A program made the translations under genes and the position numbers. Shown piece after piece: positions 3,048-11,953 of a stretch of DNA of 12,421 nt (the first letter of the stretch is position 1; each line of letters begins with the position of its first letter). The stretch covers positions 1 through 12,421 of the forward strand of contig JAUYLR010000065.1 in assembly GCA_030698935.1 (NCBI GenBank), read 5' to 3'. Origin of the DNA: a bacterium (GTDB lineage: Bacteria > Patescibacteriota > Minisyncoccia > Phycocordibacterales > UBA2100). The notes beneath the pieces were generated by a model that saw only the letters and a program-made list of their open reading frames with translations, had not been told where the DNA came from and made no database searches.

Positions 3048-3082
3048 TGATTAAATATACCAGAAAATCCCTGAATACTTAA
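3048..3082 (-). promoter_or_regulatory. Predicted trpS promoter (extended -10, leaderless)
   Basis: On the minus strand TATATT (plus-strand 3054-3059) is preceded by TGG, giving an extended -10 (TGGTATATT). Six bases separate it from the trpS ATG, so transcription would start at or next to the initiator codon. TTAAGT, 17 bases further upstream (3077-3082), is a poor -35 and overlaps the histidine kinase stop codon. The call comes from sequence pattern only. Confidence 0.5.
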
Positions 3083-4695
3083 TCAGTCGGCAGTTCAGTG
3101 ATAAATCTAGAACCCCTGTCTTTCCCTTCCGATTCGGCCCAGATTTTGCCGCCGTGCGCCTCCGTAATGGATTTGGCAATGTATAGTCCGTATCCGGTTG
3201 AGTGCACATTTACTTTTATAGAATCCGCGCCGTGGCCGCCTTCGGTGAACAGTCTTTTCATATCTTCCGCAGTTATGCCCACGCCGGTGTCGGTGATGGT
3301 CATTCTCAATATGCCGGCGGTCTTTGAGAGTTCCACATGCACACTCCCCGAAGGCGTGTACTTAATTGAATTGTCTATCACGTTCCGTATGACGTGCCGG
3401 CGCAATTTGTTCTCATCACCGTTCACTGTTGCGGGGCCGTCCGTGTTGTCTGTATATTCCAATGAGATTCCCTTTTCTTGCGCCATCGGTTTTAGCGAAT
3501 TCACTACGTCCTGAACCGCAACAGAAAAGTTGAACGGTTTCTTGTCGTAGGCGACTGTTCCCTTTTTCAAATTGGATGCGTCAAGTATGTCCATAACCGT
3601 TTCCACCCCCTTGCGCGTGTCTACGAGTGCTGAAGCCGCCATCGTTTTCAGGGGTTCCGACACAGCACCATAATCCCCTTCTGTAATAGCCGCAAAACCA
3701 GCCTCATTCTTTGTAAGGTATCCCTTAATTTCGTGGCTGATGAAATGCAGAAGCCCTTCCTGTTGATGATTGACCACTTCCAATTCCTGTTCCTGTTTTT
3801 GGATGAGTTCCCGCTGCGCGATTTCTCTTTCAGAAACTCTGAACAGCATGATTCCGAGGGTGAGGACGACGCCGAAACTTATAGCTGTCAGAACAAAATC
3901 AGTGGTACTTTGAACCGAAAAGAACTGCGTACCGGCCAGTGCAAGAAAGACGTAAAAAAGGGCTTTGACCGCCGTGCTACCCAGTTTAAAAGTGCCGTAG
4001 CTGGTGATGGCAATAGTCAACAAAAGGATAAATACCGGAAGCGAGAAGAAAGAGTAGAGCTCTATCTCGTACACTCCCGTGTAACTTGATATATACTCGC
4101 TTCCCGCGAATATCCCCATAAAAAGTACGATGGGCGCGACAACGAACCCAATCCGGACCCGCTCCCGCCTGTCTCTATGCGTCCGGAAGACTTTTATGAG
4201 TCCGAACAGAAATGTTGCCGCGAGGATAATTGCTTCAAGTGCGAGCTTGTAGTCTTCAATCAGTCTGTTATTGAGCATCTCACATTGCGGCTGATTGAAT
4301 CCGGTCACGGCATTTCCCGTGACTGTTATAACCAAAGGTACGGCAATGGAAATGACAATCGCGGGAGACACCCAGCGGCGGACGTTCGCAGGAAAAAGGT
4401 CATCGCTCACAAAGCCAAATAAAAGGAGAAAGAACGTTATTTCTATATAATCCATTGCTTGCCATACAGCCGCGACCAGATGGTAGCTGTCGCTCGTCCA
4501 CAATATAAGGTCTCCAATAAGCCAGAGAGCGAATCCGACGACAAACGCGAAGAAATACTCGGCCTTGTGGCGATTTTCAGCCTTCTGATATGCGAAGCAT
4601 CCTAAAATGAAGATTGCGAGGGACGGGATAAGATGCGCATACAAAGCCAAGTTTCTGTATGATTCAGTTGTGGCGAAACAAGTGTTGATATCCAT
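3079..4695 (-). CDS. Multi-pass membrane sensor histidine kinase
   Basis: This sensor kinase has 538 residues. The N-terminal half holds about eight or nine hydrophobic segments (roughly 15-37, 47-67, 82-99, 108-128, 150-170, 182-203, 212-233, 243-260, 265-285) with short loops, so the signal is probably sensed within or near the membrane. A coiled-coil-like linker (about 288-312) leads to the phospho-acceptor H-box HFISHEIKG, with His at 321. The ATP-binding domain shows the N-box RNVIDNSIKYTPSG (437-450), G1 DTGVGI (469-474) and G2 GYGLYIAKSI (501-510). All catalytic boxes look intact. No receiver domain is fused, and no response regulator lies in the window. The ATG at 4695 is chosen because it lies four bases after the preceding stop; the 36-residue extension upstream is Arg/Ser-rich and reads over that gene. 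It is the last gene of the 3079-6576 run. The ligand is unknown. Confidence 0.88.
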   Translation of the reverse strand: MDINTCFATTESYRNLALYAHLIPSLAIFILGCFAYQKAENRHKAEYFFAFVVGFALWLIGDLILWTSDSYHLVAAVWQAMDYIEITFFLLLFGFVSDDLFPANVRRWVSPAIVISIAVPLVITVTGNAVTGFNQPQCEMLNNRLIEDYKLALEAIILAATFLFGLIKVFRTHRDRRERVRIGFVVAPIVLFMGIFAGSEYISSYTGVYEIELYSFFSLPVFILLLTIAITSYGTFKLGSTAVKALFYVFLALAGTQFFSVQSTTDFVLTAISFGVVLTLGIMLFRVSEREIAQRELIQKQEQELEVVNHQQEGLLHFISHEIKGYLTKNEAGFAAITEGDYGAVSEPLKTMAASALVDTRKGVETVMDILDASNLKKGTVAYDKKPFNFSVAVQDVVNSLKPMAQEKGISLEYTDNTDGPATVNGDENKLRRHVIRNVIDNSIKYTPSGSVHVELSKTAGILRMTITDTGVGITAEDMKRLFTEGGHGADSIKVNVHSTGYGLYIAKSITEAHGGKIWAESEGKDRGSRFITELPTD

Positions 4696-4699
4696 ATGT

Positions 4700-8190: not shown

Positions 8191-9264
8191 CTATAGTCCT
8201 TCCTTCCGCAGTTGCGCAATGAGTTCGTTCGCCGTGCGCGAGAGTTTTTTCGGGAATTGGATGTCAATCCGTACCAGCAGGTCTCCGCGCGACCCCCTGC
8301 CGTGCGGAACCCCCCGCTCGCGCACCCGTATGAGCTCCCCGTGCGCAATTCCCTGCGGGACGGTTACAGATACACCCCCGTCAAGCGTCTCAACCTTAAA
8401 TTCACCTCCCAAGAGCGCGTCGGTAAGTTTCAAATGAAGAACGGTCAGCAGATTATTTCCGTCCCGCGTAAACGATCTGTCGGCTTTAACGTGCAGTTTT
8501 ATATAGAGGTCGCCTGCGACACCGCCGGCGGCCGCTTCTCCCCTGCCCGGCATGCGAACCATCTCACCGTCGGATACTCCCGCGGGAATGACAACGTGCA
8601 CCTCCTCTTCCCGTTTTGCGACACCCTGCCCTTTGCACGTGTCGCACGGGTGTTCCGGAACCTCGCCGCGCCCCAAACAGGTGGGGCATGTGCGCGTGGT
8701 TGTGAAGTTGCCGAAGAATGTGTTGCGGGCTTCGCGAATTTCGCCCTTGCCGTTGCATGAAGCGCATGTGGTGCGCTTCGTACCCTTCTTGGCTCCTGTG
8801 CCGTCGCATCCTCCGCAGACGCTCATTTTGGCGATGAGCATTCTGCGCTCTGTGCCGAATATAGCCTCACGGAACGGCAGTTCAATATCAACGGAGATGT
8901 CGCGGCCGCGACTCCTGCCCGAAGCGCCACGGCCCCCTCCGCCGAAAAACTCGCCGAAAATGTCGCCGATATCAAATTCCTGCTCGTTGAATCCGCCGTG
9001 AGCGAAGTTGGAGAAATCGAATCCGCCGAACCCGCCGGCCTGTTGGCCTCCGCCGGCGAATGTCTTTCCGTATGTGTCGTACTCCGCCCGCCTCTTTTTG
9101 TCTGAAAGCACCGCGTACGCCTCGCTCGCCTCCTTGAACTTTTTTTCATCCCCTCCCTTTTTATCCGGATGGTATTTATGAGCGAGTTTTCTAAACGCGC
9201 TTTTTATTTCGTCTTCACTCGCGCTTTTCGTAACGCCGAGAATATTGTAATAATCCTTTGCCAT
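8191..9264 (-). CDS. dnaJ: Chaperone protein DnaJ (type I Hsp40)
   Basis: DnaJ delivers unfolded proteins to DnaK and stimulates its ATPase. It has 357 residues and full type I architecture: J-domain at 1-68 with the HPD tripeptide at 32-34, a Gly/Phe-rich region at about 70-118, and a zinc-binding domain with four CXXCXGXG repeats (CGGCDGTG, CASCNGKG, CPTCLGRG, CDTCKGQG) at about 150-214. The C-terminal substrate-binding domains follow (VVIPAGVSDGEMVRMPGRGE; TLDGGVSVTVPQGIAHGELIRV). The start ATG 9264 gives the standard MAKDYYNILGV opening; an 11-residue extension to 9297 would include the promoter and is rejected. A clear promoter lies just upstream. It lies downstream of grpE-dnaK on the same strand but is separated from them by a plus-strand gene, so it is transcribed on its own. 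Confidence 0.97.
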   Translation of the reverse strand: MAKDYYNILGVTKSASEDEIKSAFRKLAHKYHPDKKGGDEKKFKEASEAYAVLSDKKRRAEYDTYGKTFAGGGQQAGGFGGFDFSNFAHGGFNEQEFDIGDIFGEFFGGGGRGASGRSRGRDISVDIELPFREAIFGTERRMLIAKMSVCGGCDGTGAKKGTKRTTCASCNGKGEIREARNTFFGNFTTTRTCPTCLGRGEVPEHPCDTCKGQGVAKREEEVHVVIPAGVSDGEMVRMPGRGEAAAGGVAGDLYIKLHVKADRSFTRDGNNLLTVLHLKLTDALLGGEFKVETLDGGVSVTVPQGIAHGELIRVRERGVPHGRGSRGDLLVRIDIQFPKKLSRTANELIAQLRKEGL

Positions 9265-9302: not shown

Positions 9303-9342
9303 AAAAGAAAAGGCATGAAATGAATTCCTATGCCAATGATAT

Positions 9343-9354
9343 ACGCCTAGGCGT
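9343..9354. repeat. Perfect 12-base palindrome ACGCCTAGGCGT in the promoter region of the PaaX-like gene
   Basis: ACGCCTAGGCGT is its own reverse complement and lies 20-31 bases before the ATG at 9374, just upstream of the -10-like TAGACT (9362-9367, six bases before the ATG). That is where a repressor operator would be expected. It also lies about 40 bases upstream of the dnaJ -35, in the shared divergent region. The same 12-mer recurs after the gene at 9948-9959. Confidence 0.75.
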
Positions 9355-9373
9355 TATATGTTAGACTATTCAT

Positions 9374-9935
9374 ATGCTCGTCAGTCGGCGCGGAAAAATA
9401 CTTGGCAGGGTCCTATCGACCATCGCAAACGCCGCGATTGCCATGGCGCGCCACCCCGGAAACACTTCGCTCAGCGCGTATAGGGCAATGCGCGAATTTG
9501 AAAAGCTTCAGGATATATCGGATAGACAATTGCGGAGCGTATCACGCTACATTGTCGCAAAGAAGTACATCTCTATTACAAGACGAGGAAACGCCGCAGA
9601 GATTGCACTTAGTGAATCAGGCAAAAAGATTATCGCGTGGCAAGCGCTTCTTGCGCTAAAGCCGCAAAAAACAAAAAGTATGGGATAAAAAATGGCGCGT
9701 TGTTATCTTTGATATACCAAATCAATTGAAAACCGCTCGTGATGGATTTGCCGCAATGCTGAAAAGATTGGATTTCACACACGTCCAGAAATCAGTCTTT
9801 ATTTCACCTTACCCGTGCGAGGAGGAACTCGAGGTTATCGCTGATTATTTCGGCATCGCGGATTGTATAGAAATTATCATTGCCGAACGTATATGGCACG
9901 AACGGAAATATAAATCCCACTTCGGATTAAAATGA
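9374..9935 (+). pseudogene. PaaX/Cas2-like winged-helix regulator, split by a one-base frameshift
   Basis: Read as one gene of about 186 codons, this is the CPR family with a PaaX-like N-terminal winged helix (frame 9374-9688: ARHPGNTSLSAYRAMREFEKLQ, ISDRQLRSVSRYIVAKKYISITRRGN) and a Cas2-like ferredoxin-fold C-terminus (stop at 9935: WDKKWRVVIFDIP, then LDFTHVQKSVFISPYPCEEELEVIADYFG). The halves are in different frames. The downstream frame is open upstream to KKQKVWDKKWRVV across 9666-9692. Removing one A from the six-A run at 9666-9671 joins them into KPQKQKVWDKKW, which fits the family linker. The downstream half alone has only a TTG (9726) start, inside the conserved domain. It could be a pseudogene, a sequencing error, or a product of slippage at the A-run. 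The Asp of FDIP corresponds to the Cas2 metal-site position, but no CRISPR array or other cas gene is near, so a CRISPR role is unlikely. Palindromes flank it on both sides. Confidence 0.72.
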
Positions 9936-9940
9936 TTATG

Positions 9941-9966
9941 ATAATTTACGCCTAGGCGTAAATTAT
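9941..9966. repeat. Perfect 26-base palindrome after the PaaX-like gene
   Basis: The left half is ATAATTTACGCCT and the right half is its exact reverse complement, so all 26 bases are symmetric. Its centre (9948-9959) is the same ACGCCTAGGCGT as at 9343-9354. It starts five bases after the gene's last base and lies in the 125-base gap between converging genes (dnaK ends at 10061 on the other strand). As RNA it could fold into an 11-base-pair stem with a CUAG loop on either strand. No T-run follows, so it is not a textbook terminator. Confidence 0.8.
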
Positions 9967-9974
9967 TGGTATGG

Positions 9975-10060: not shown

Positions 10061-11953
10061 CTATGGGGTCTTAGGGGGTTCCTCCGGAGGTTTCTGTTCG
10101 CCTCCCTGCGGCGGCTCTTGCGGTGGAGGATTTTTCGCCATTGCCTCGCCGATTGCGCTCATCGCCGTTCCGAGCGCGTCGGTCGCCGATTTGATGGCGG
10201 CCGTGTCCGTGCCCGCGCGTGCCGTCTTCAGTGCATCAATTCTCACTTCTACATTCTTGCGGATATCCTCGCTTACCTTTTCGCCGTGTTCTTTCAGCGC
10301 TTTCTCCGCGGCGTAGTGGATTTGGTCTGCGGCGTTTTGCGCCTCAACGAGTTCTTTCTTTTGCTTGTCGGCATCGGCGTTAATATCGGCGTCTTTCCGC
10401 ATTTTTTCAACTTCGGCGTCAGTGAGCCCCGAACGTGCCTCAATGCGGATTGACTGCTCTTTTCCTGAAGCCTTATCTTTTGCAGTGACGCTCAAAATTC
10501 CGTTTGCATCTATATCAAACTTGACCTCCACCTGCGGTATCCCGCGGGGCGCCGGCGGAATGCCGTCCAAATTGAACCGTCCGAGCGACTTGTTATCACC
10601 CGCCATCGGTCTCTCGCCTTGCACGATATGGATTTCAACCGACGGCTGGTTATCCGATGCGGTGGAAAATACCTGCGAGCGCGATGTGGGGATGGTCGTA
10701 TTGCGCTCAATTATCTTTGTGGCGACTCCGCCCATGGTTTCAATTCCCATTGAAAGCGGAATCACGTCCAAAAGCAAGACGTCTTTGACGTCGCCTTGAA
10801 GGATTCCTCCTTGGATTGCCGCGCCGATGGCGACCACCTCGTCGGGATTCACCGTCATGTTCGGCTTCTTCTTGAAGAAATCCTCAACGGCCTTCTGAAG
10901 CGCGGGCATACGCGTTTGCCCGCCCACGAGAATGACTTCGTTCAAATCTCCCACCTTAAACGGAGAGGCGTCCATGGCGCGCTTTGTAATTGCCATCGCC
11001 TGTTGCACAAATTCGGCGGAAAGGTCTTCCAACTTTGCGCGCGACATTTTGACGAGCAGGTGTCGCGGACCCGATGAGTCAGAGGTGATGAACGGGATAT
11101 TTATTTCGGTTTCAAGGGCCGTTGAAAGCTCAATTTTTGCCTTCTCCGCGGCCTCGTCCAGCCGTTGGCGGGCGAGCGGGTCGTTCCTCACGTCTATACC
11201 CGACTCCTTTTTGAACTCATCGGCAATCCACGCCATGATTTTCTGGTCTATATCTTTTCCTCCAAGATGGCTGTCGCCGTCTGTTGAGCGCACCTCAATG
11301 ACGTCGTCACCAACCTCCAGAACAGAGATATCAAACGTGCCTCCCCCGAAGTCAAACACCACAATTTTCTCGTTCTTTTTTTTGTTGAACCCATATGCGA
11401 GCGCCGCTGCTGTCGGCTCATTTATTATGCGCTTCACATCCAGCCCCGCGATTTTACCCGCATCGCGCGTAGCCTGCCGCTGAGCGTCGTTGAAATACGC
11501 AGGGACCGTGATAACAGCCTCCGTAATTGTCTCACCGAGCTTCGCTTCGGCATCCTGCTTCAGCTTCTGAAGTATCATTGCGGATATTTCTTCAGGTCGG
11601 TACCATTTCGGCTCGTTTGACCCGCCCGGAGCCGCTCCCATGTGCACCTCAATGCCGCCACTTGAAGATTTTCTAACCTCAAATGGAACGGCTTTTCTGT
11701 CCTTATCAACTGCGGACTCATCATATGAGTGCCCAATGAAGCGTTTTATTTGGAATATTGTGTTTTTTGGATTTGTTACGGCTTGTCTCCTTGCCAAGAG
11801 TCCCACTAGCCGCTCTCCGGTTTTTGAAATTGCGACTACCGATGGCGTCGTTCGCGCGCCCTCTGCGTTCTCAATTATTTCCGGTTCTCCGCTTCGCACA
11901 ACGGCGACTGCGGAGTTTGTGGTTCCCAAGTCAATTCCAATTATTTTTCCCAT
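10061..11953 (-). CDS. dnaK: Chaperone protein DnaK (Hsp70)
   Basis: DnaK binds exposed hydrophobic segments of client proteins in an ATP-driven cycle with DnaJ and GrpE. It has 630 residues, normal for the family. The ATPase domain opens with [15 protein letters not shown] (5-19), has the catalytic lysine at 70 (FQIKRFIG), the phosphate-2 motif [10 protein letters not shown] (201-210), and later [14 protein letters not shown]. The substrate-binding beta domain includes [21 protein letters not shown] and the lid helices follow. A Gly/Ser-rich stretch at about 97-113 sits in the ATPase domain. The tail is proline-rich ([19 protein letters not shown] and a few more residues) instead of the acidic end of E. 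coli DnaK. The start ATG 11953 lies 11 bases after the grpE stop, without a Shine-Dalgarno sequence, so the two are probably one transcript. Confidence 0.98.

Follow-up and report, generated by a model that had tools for sequence, protein, structure and literature searches.

A winged-helix/Cas2-fold protein gene of Patescibacteria paired with its own hairpin-forming palindromes

The sites of telomere resolvases are palindromes of about 40-56 bp that are processed at their centre into hairpins, and REP sequences are known to flank the RAYT gene. RAYTs duplicate hairpin-forming REPINs and are inherited vertically, with 69-235 REPINs reported per E. coli genome (PMC8049555). The gene-and-repeat system described here resembles the RAYT-REPIN arrangement in that a resident, vertically inherited gene is bordered on both sides by palindromic repeats with the ability to form hairpins, but its copy numbers look low against this range. 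Since the defining RAYT protein is absent, it is not a RAYT: the family combines a winged helix with a Cas2 fold, and none of 38 members matched Y1_Tnp (PF01797, which we take to be the Y1 (HUH/tyrosine) transposase) at E <= 0.01, in a scan that returned matches to 15 families in all. It also differs in its near-perfect palindromes with a C-NNNN-G centre and in the presence of several genes per genome (up to 14 matches, in genome G072); the genes inspected, seven in G072 and nine in G071, mostly carry different palindromes. Telomere resolvases are alike in palindrome size but belong to a different protein family. A literature search limited to a PMC subset, judged from titles and the openings of abstracts, returned no description of a PaaX/Cas2-like gene paired with a palindrome; some of the titles retrieved concerned Csa3, CARF, type I-D, casposons and Cas1.

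The locus at the origin of this analysis lies in the window, the whole stretch of 12,421 nt of DNA that was analysed. Its host is a Kaiserbacteria-like Patescibacterium, and the nearest named homologue of the gene comes from Candidatus Kaiserbacteria. The features discussed below are the following, with the strand given for genes:

8191..9264, minus strand: dnaJ, flanking gene (DnaJ PF00226, DnaJ_C PF01556)
9330..9972: whole unit in the dnaK-dnaJ gap, a single gene within 25-nt inverted-repeat ends (88%)
9331..9366: upstream (U) palindromic site, with the core ACGCCTAGGCGT at 9343-9354, a degenerate inner arm and an outer arm resembling solitary copies of the family
9374..9688, plus strand: gene piece 1, N-terminal winged-helix part, ending at a stop after the frame break
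9687..9935, plus strand: gene piece 2, PaaX_M/Cas2-like domain, an in-frame stretch for which no start of its own is assumed
9936..9971: downstream (D) palindromic site, with a perfect 26-bp palindrome at 9941-9966 and a hairpin fold
10061..11953, minus strand: dnaK, flanking gene (HSP70 PF00012)

An earlier note on this DNA had described an identical palindrome on both sides of a small gene, with the second copy at the heart of a 26-base perfect palindrome. Both observations hold: the two ACGCCTAGGCGT copies (9343-9354 and 9948-9959) are 605 bp apart, no third copy is present in the window even with up to two mismatches, and the second copy forms the core of the palindrome at 9941-9966. A repeat search additionally identified a 25-nt inverted repeat (9330-9354 / 9948-9972, 88% complementary), so that the outer arms of the two sites match as well. 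The left site is a perfect palindrome over the 12-mer only and, as a single strand, folds no better than shuffled sequences (-3.4 kcal/mol, z -0.64); for the right site, single-strand folding predicts a hairpin whose 4-nt loop is CTAG (-9.0 kcal/mol, z -5.7). The gene itself is frameshifted, with its two pieces in different frames, which reflects either decay or an assembly error; its nearest homologues, as far as they were read here, are full-length. The break falls in an A-rich run (9660-9690). Piece 2 matches PaaX_M (PF20803, E 7.6e-18) and CRISPR_Cas2 (PF09827, E 1.9e-6) and contains an invariant Asp (in FDIP), an Arg and a QxS motif, residues taken from homologue alignments, whereas the winged-helix assignment of piece 1 is based on an AlphaFold model of a homologue from genome G026. 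The window contains no match to Rfam at the gathering threshold. In a region unrelated to the palindromes (3079-4698), it encodes a sensor-like protein with a histidine-kinase ATPase domain (HATPase_c), adjoining a gene that, judging from its translation, is presumably trpS.

Members of the protein family are about 190 aa long and consist of a winged helix followed by a Cas2-fold PaaX_M domain. Both PaaX_M and Cas2 models (E <= 0.01) matched all 38 members scanned; the winged helix was seen in the one structure model made, that of the G026 homologue. Fold comparisons retrieved E. coli PaaX (8a39), the best solved relative, together with Cas2 chains. PaaX repressors, which control the phenylacetate regulon, show the same succession of winged helix and Cas2-like PaaX_M domain but are larger (316 aa). 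Moreover, the family has a Cas2 fold and keeps the catalytic-type Asp: this residue and an Arg are invariant in 106/106 homologues. In E. coli PaaX, FDI is replaced by SEG, as judged by eye from the printed protein, and the Asp is thus missing. The equivalog model for full-length PaaX (TIGR02277, cut-off 264.55 bits) was matched by 37 of the 38 members at E <= 0.01. The first member scores 22.9 bits, and the others also lie below the cut-off, because the best E-value obtained (1.4e-16) is too weak for 264.55 bits. The Cas2 proteins of CRISPR adaptation share the ferredoxin-like domain with its conserved Asp, but here this domain is fused to a winged helix, and the neighbours of the window gene, the single locus checked for a cas1 or CRISPR context, are dnaK and dnaJ. 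One scan of viral contigs with one alignment yielded no viral relatives. We know of no member of the PaaX/Cas2-like family whose activity is known.

The pairing of gene and palindrome was analysed in two sets of loci. The first comprised PF20803 genes from 60 genomes (107 matches in 36 genomes, the window's own included) and 80 of the 191 loci that a scan of named genomes yielded; by their titles, the latter stem from Patescibacteria-type or unnamed bacterial bins, except for one Syntrophaceae bin, the assignment of the Candidatus names to Patescibacteria being our assumption. After the removal of two duplicates, 185 loci remained, 180 of them scorable. The score was that of the best pair of palindrome-centred 36-nt stretches, one located before the start codon (picked by script) and one after the stop, with a threshold of at least 24/36. 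Counted over loci that are phylogenetically non-independent (the first set mostly represents one genus, and the locus pairs considered below share species), matching U and D palindromes were found at 150/180 loci, compared with 3/387 mismatched pairs in which U of one gene was combined with D of another. The window locus scored 26 of 36. In a second, phylum-wide set, 18/30 loci were paired, compared with 2/400 in the control; one of its loci (G396:C2) is identical to a member of the first set (L174), leaving 17/29 new. E. coli paaX, the negative control, scored 11 of 36 and thus differs from the family in having no matching pair. The link between palindrome and gene family suspected in the earlier note therefore extends across the phylum, and the observation made in the window is real and far more general than first seen. 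The resemblance in layout to REP palindromes around RAYT genes, which the note had pointed out, is supported as well. Chance pairing is rejected by the mismatched-pair controls. The same applies to chance palindromes: at least one flank scored 8 or more in 72/104 and 57/78 loci, against 10/352 and 9/348 control windows placed away from genes.

Below the pairing threshold were 30/180 loci of the first set and 12/30 of the second. Pairing varied with protein length, reaching 156/188 for proteins of 165-209 aa, 3/5 for those below 165 aa and 8/21 for those of at least 210 aa, of which 13/21 were unpaired. At the 168 paired loci, the centre of U lies a median of 30 nt before the start codon and that of D a median of 30 nt after the stop, with a median spacing of 638 nt between the two centres. 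The gene family was detected in 122 of 379 evenly drawn Patescibacteria genomes. It is patchy, with 0-9 copies per genome among 60 relatives.

When copies were picked by symmetry only (at least 15 of 18 pairs), 159/168 had a C-NNNN-G centre. The central tetranucleotide varies (GATC, TATA, CATG, GACC, GGCC, ATAT, AATT, CTAG and others) and is mostly itself a palindrome. As a single DNA strand, a solitary copy is predicted to fold with -21.8 kcal/mol into a hairpin whose loop is exactly this tetranucleotide. U and D of one gene diverge chiefly in mid-stem, and a good part of these differences are paired. When D was selected for symmetry and U for sequence likeness alone (58 loci), 54/66 double changes keep the pair, compared with 6.0 expected if the two sides changed independently, alongside 133 one-sided changes in 983 pairs; in the reverse direction (40 loci), the pair is kept in 50/56 double changes (3.6 expected), alongside 59 one-sided changes in 683 pairs. 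These compensated changes either mark a selected structure or show that one arm has been copied from the other. Further repeat families made of perfect palindromes, with different centres, were noticed in G072, G071 and other records (e.g. L350-L352, L376), namely CATTCTAACGTTTTGCAAAACGTTAGAATG, CATTCCAACATTCTGCAGAATGTTGGAATG, TTATATGCTTATTCGCGCGAATAAGCATATAA and ATCCCGATACTTAGT...ACTAAGTATCGGGAT. No gene has so far been paired with any of them; they may belong to a partner family that has gone unrecognised.

Within its own assembly (678,695 bp in 111 contigs, 69% complete), the 12-mer occurs at three further places, each time in a longer palindrome: a perfect 46-nt palindrome at the start of contig C105, a somewhat shorter palindrome on C42, in which one position is mispaired, and a copy on C76 that is cut off by the contig end. 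A search of the three contigs for PF20803 genes gave no match, with both flanks visible only for the C42 copy; a gene beyond the ends of C76 and C105 is possible, because both copies sit at contig ends. These two contigs thus break within or beside long CCTAGG-family palindromes, and such hairpins may fragment assemblies of this kind and lower the counts obtained from them. Three out of 52 genomes from the genus contain the 12-mer, at five places in its own genome, two in G023 and one in G072; it is accordingly not scattered without a link to the family, with the reservation that G023 carries its two copies as perfect CCTAGG-family palindromes yet has no close homologue of the window gene (assembly 90% complete). 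Nor do close relatives lack the palindrome, as the earlier note had considered: GCCTAGGC is kept at 10/10 sites flanking the window gene and the four genes nearest to it within the genus (G026:C41, G026:C5, G072:C56 and G075:C5).

The gap between dnaK and dnaJ contains a homologous gene in equal orientation in G072 and G026 (C41). G071 and G023 encode DnaJ proteins with 89% and 82% identity to that of the window; in these two genomes, the gap lacks the gene and instead holds a solitary palindrome of the CATATG family, and in G008 it holds one of the CAGCTG family. Given these contents, the window unit resembles a long-standing resident, retained by some lineages but not by others that have lost it, and palindromes of different families may settle preferentially in this gap. 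Another subfamily is located about 2.2-2.7 kb upstream of dnaJ in G034, G028, G020 and G035, a distance suggesting that dnaK lies in between; three of these species have CAATTG as its centre and one has CATATG, the two flanking copies having changed jointly.

The central hexamer is common to U and D at 136/167 loci, and the type of centre tracks the protein tree. For 145 labelled proteins and nine states, it requires 57 changes on this tree, whereas none of 100 shuffles needed fewer than 88. Correspondingly, the fraction of protein pairs sharing a centre is 0.06-0.09 below 30% identity and rises to as much as 0.57 at 70% identity or more. The dynamics of the two sites can be followed in 40 locus pairs (48 loci) from different genomes or records with both flanks homologous. 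On average, U and D of the same locus agree at 30.2/36 positions, compared with 21.6/36 for the same site in the two genomes, and within-locus agreement is higher in 32/40 pairs. In the remaining 8/40, the same site agrees between genomes equally well or better, as expected for close species, and these pairs are not evidence for concerted change. When a flank match of at least 150 nt is demanded on each side (32 pairs, 37 loci), the averages are 30.0 and 21.8, with the within-locus value higher in 26/32. Among 1181 stem pairs compared over the 40 locus pairs, 335 changes are compensated, 107 one-sided and 41 double but unpaired. The higher agreement within than between loci thus indicates that the gene stays put and that both of its palindromes are replaced together, a process that close species do not yet show. 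In a close case, the CATATG locus shared by G000 and G071 (flanks 82-83% identical), the D sites differ by two compensated pairs and the U sites by two one-sided changes.

As in RAYT-REPIN systems, dispersed copies match the gene, here in part. In seven genomes, 21/55 solitary C-NNNN-G palindromes match the gene sites of their own genome at a threshold of at least 27/36, compared with 26/770 comparisons with single other genomes; the gene matches covered were 9/11 in G071 and 7/14 in G072. When all other genomes are considered, 19/55 match some element, and 34/55 have no match to an element of their own genome. A threshold of 24/36 would not be strict here, because 7/200 random palindromes reach it against some element palindrome. 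Some of the solitary palindromes belong to other repeat families, and some may be terminators. One intergenic gap holds a CAATTG-centred solitary palindrome in both G014 and G035, with unlike stems: the G014 copy scores 29/36 against the gene sites of its own genome and 24 elsewhere, and the G035 copy 28/36 against its own, but 32 against those of another genome. The 716 kb examined in G071 and G072 contain 40 solitary C-NNNN-G palindromes, including some from other repeat families; 33 of the 40 lie outside open reading frames, compared with 571/4000 random points. These 33 are distributed over 23 tandem, five divergent and five convergent gaps (random points: 333, 116 and 97, with 25 at edges), without an excess in tandem or divergent over convergent gaps. 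In a small comparison, element-like palindromes numbered eight in 392 kb of gene-rich genomes and none in 340 kb of five gene-free genomes of the genus. The relatives compared, all of them distant, yielded no case of a recently inserted solitary copy marked by a target duplication and a clean empty site. Where the flanks of solitary palindromes had homologues in other genomes, the matches listed mostly held another palindrome or a diverged gap in place of a clean empty site. Recent insertion into genes was likewise rejected, as 24 locus-strand cases of open flanking frames contained no clear interrupted gene by eye.

Taken together, we consider it somewhat better than an even bet (probability of roughly 0.55) that the window represents one locus of a Patescibacteria protein-plus-hairpin repeat system with a RAYT-REPIN-like layout and an unrelated winged-helix/Cas2-fold protein. 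The gene for the ~190-aa protein would then sit between two copies of its own palindrome of 36-46 nt, with further solitary copies that are mostly intergenic. What the protein recognises is most likely the hairpin form of the palindrome, either an extruded cruciform or a single strand at replication, and it may read the C-NNNN-G tip and the outer stem by sequence and the middle of the stem by pairing. Nicking or bridging of the hairpin is suggested by the conserved Asp of the Cas2 type. The palindrome copies would be rewritten, homogenised and occasionally seeded elsewhere, while the gene remains in place. The calculations establish the association, the matching of cognate sites, the compensated stems, the joint turnover of both sites, the solitary copies and the conserved residues; hairpin recognition, nuclease activity and palindrome copying are roles that these patterns and the Cas2-type residues lead us to propose for the protein. 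More tentatively, the family may constitute an undescribed element class of the CPR, built on a winged-helix hairpin nuclease of Cas2 fold that would recognise its own perfect palindromes, rewrite them and spread them, with its specificity drifting together with all sites.

The arrangement could alternatively reflect an autoregulatory repressor of the PaaX type that binds the palindromes as duplex dimer operators, with U mediating repression, D assisting by looping and the solitary copies forming a regulon. We regard this explanation as unlikely, even though own-operator binding is a possible activity of the predicted window protein, its domains (winged helix and PaaX_M) are those of such a repressor and the centre of U is located where a promoter is expected. 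Between U and the start codon, 135/168 loci have a TANNNT motif, an uncontrolled count of a motif that is common in AT-rich DNA, and the link between centre type and protein tree would also suit a regulator. However, D is at least as regular as U (58 and 43 of 104 loci, respectively, score 8 or more), solitary copies show no bias to promoter-bearing gaps, and the stems of U and D of one gene differ and yet remain paired. Usual dimer operators are, moreover, shorter than 36-46 nt. Binding to its own operator would thus leave the downstream copy, the intergenic solitary copies and the compensated stems unexplained. Ordinary transcription terminators, a role that perfect hairpins could serve, or a chance repeat are hardly credible in view of the pairing controls and the windows away from genes; in addition, U copies precede the start codon, and most centres are palindromic tetramers.

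The earlier note had further proposed a cassette that moves as a unit, and this part of its interpretation was not supported here, in contrast to the family link and the REP/RAYT-like layout. Such a palindrome-gene-palindrome element would transpose or recombine at palindromic attachment sites and leave solitary copies as excision scars or small non-autonomous elements. The patchy distribution of the family, the 25-nt inverted repeat at the ends of the window unit and the dnaK-dnaJ gaps with palindromes of other families in G071, G023 and G008 would fit this scenario. Nevertheless, the gene keeps its position between dnaK and dnaJ in G072 and G026, and locus positions are held across several species, with both flanks shared in 40 locus pairs. 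The window copies are inverted, but there is no fixed terminal inverted repeat across the family, since 143 element pairs scoring at least 25 comprise 53 direct, 26 inverted and 64 undecided cases. The single scan of viral contigs found no relative, and the matches listed, from distant relatives, included no clean empty site or target duplication; overall, we find a mobile cassette improbable. Even less probable is the absence of any functional link, with palindromes perfecting themselves by template switching during replication next to a gene that is merely tolerated. Template-switch correction is a known process that would yield symmetric changes, and such correction of quasi-palindromes, together with gene conversion, could produce compensated stems and concerted change without a protein; the perfect CCTAGG-family copies of G023, which lacks a close gene homologue, would also agree with it. 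This view does not account for the pairing of both sides with their own gene, the fixed C-NNNN-G tip or the link to the protein tree, and family copies are absent from the 340 kb of gene-free genomes.

Collectively, our results point to a gene-and-repeat system, undescribed so far, that is common to many ultra-small Patescibacteria, organisms with tiny genomes and many unexplained genes. A protein family found in 122 of 379 genomes thereby gains a cognate DNA partner for most of the copies examined (150/180 and 18/30), which makes its function testable by a single binding experiment. Should hairpins be cut or remodelled by the protein, the Cas2 superfamily would gain a further DNA-processing role, and repeat populations of the RAYT-REPIN type would have arisen a second time, independently. 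If the family indeed forms a class of hairpin nucleases, it would be the Cas2-superfamily counterpart of REP-associated transposases, and the drift of its specificity, comprising the central tetranucleotide and the stem, would give rise to many distinct protein-palindrome pairs that exist in parallel within a genome. Such coexisting pairs represent a natural data set on the evolution of protein-DNA specificity.
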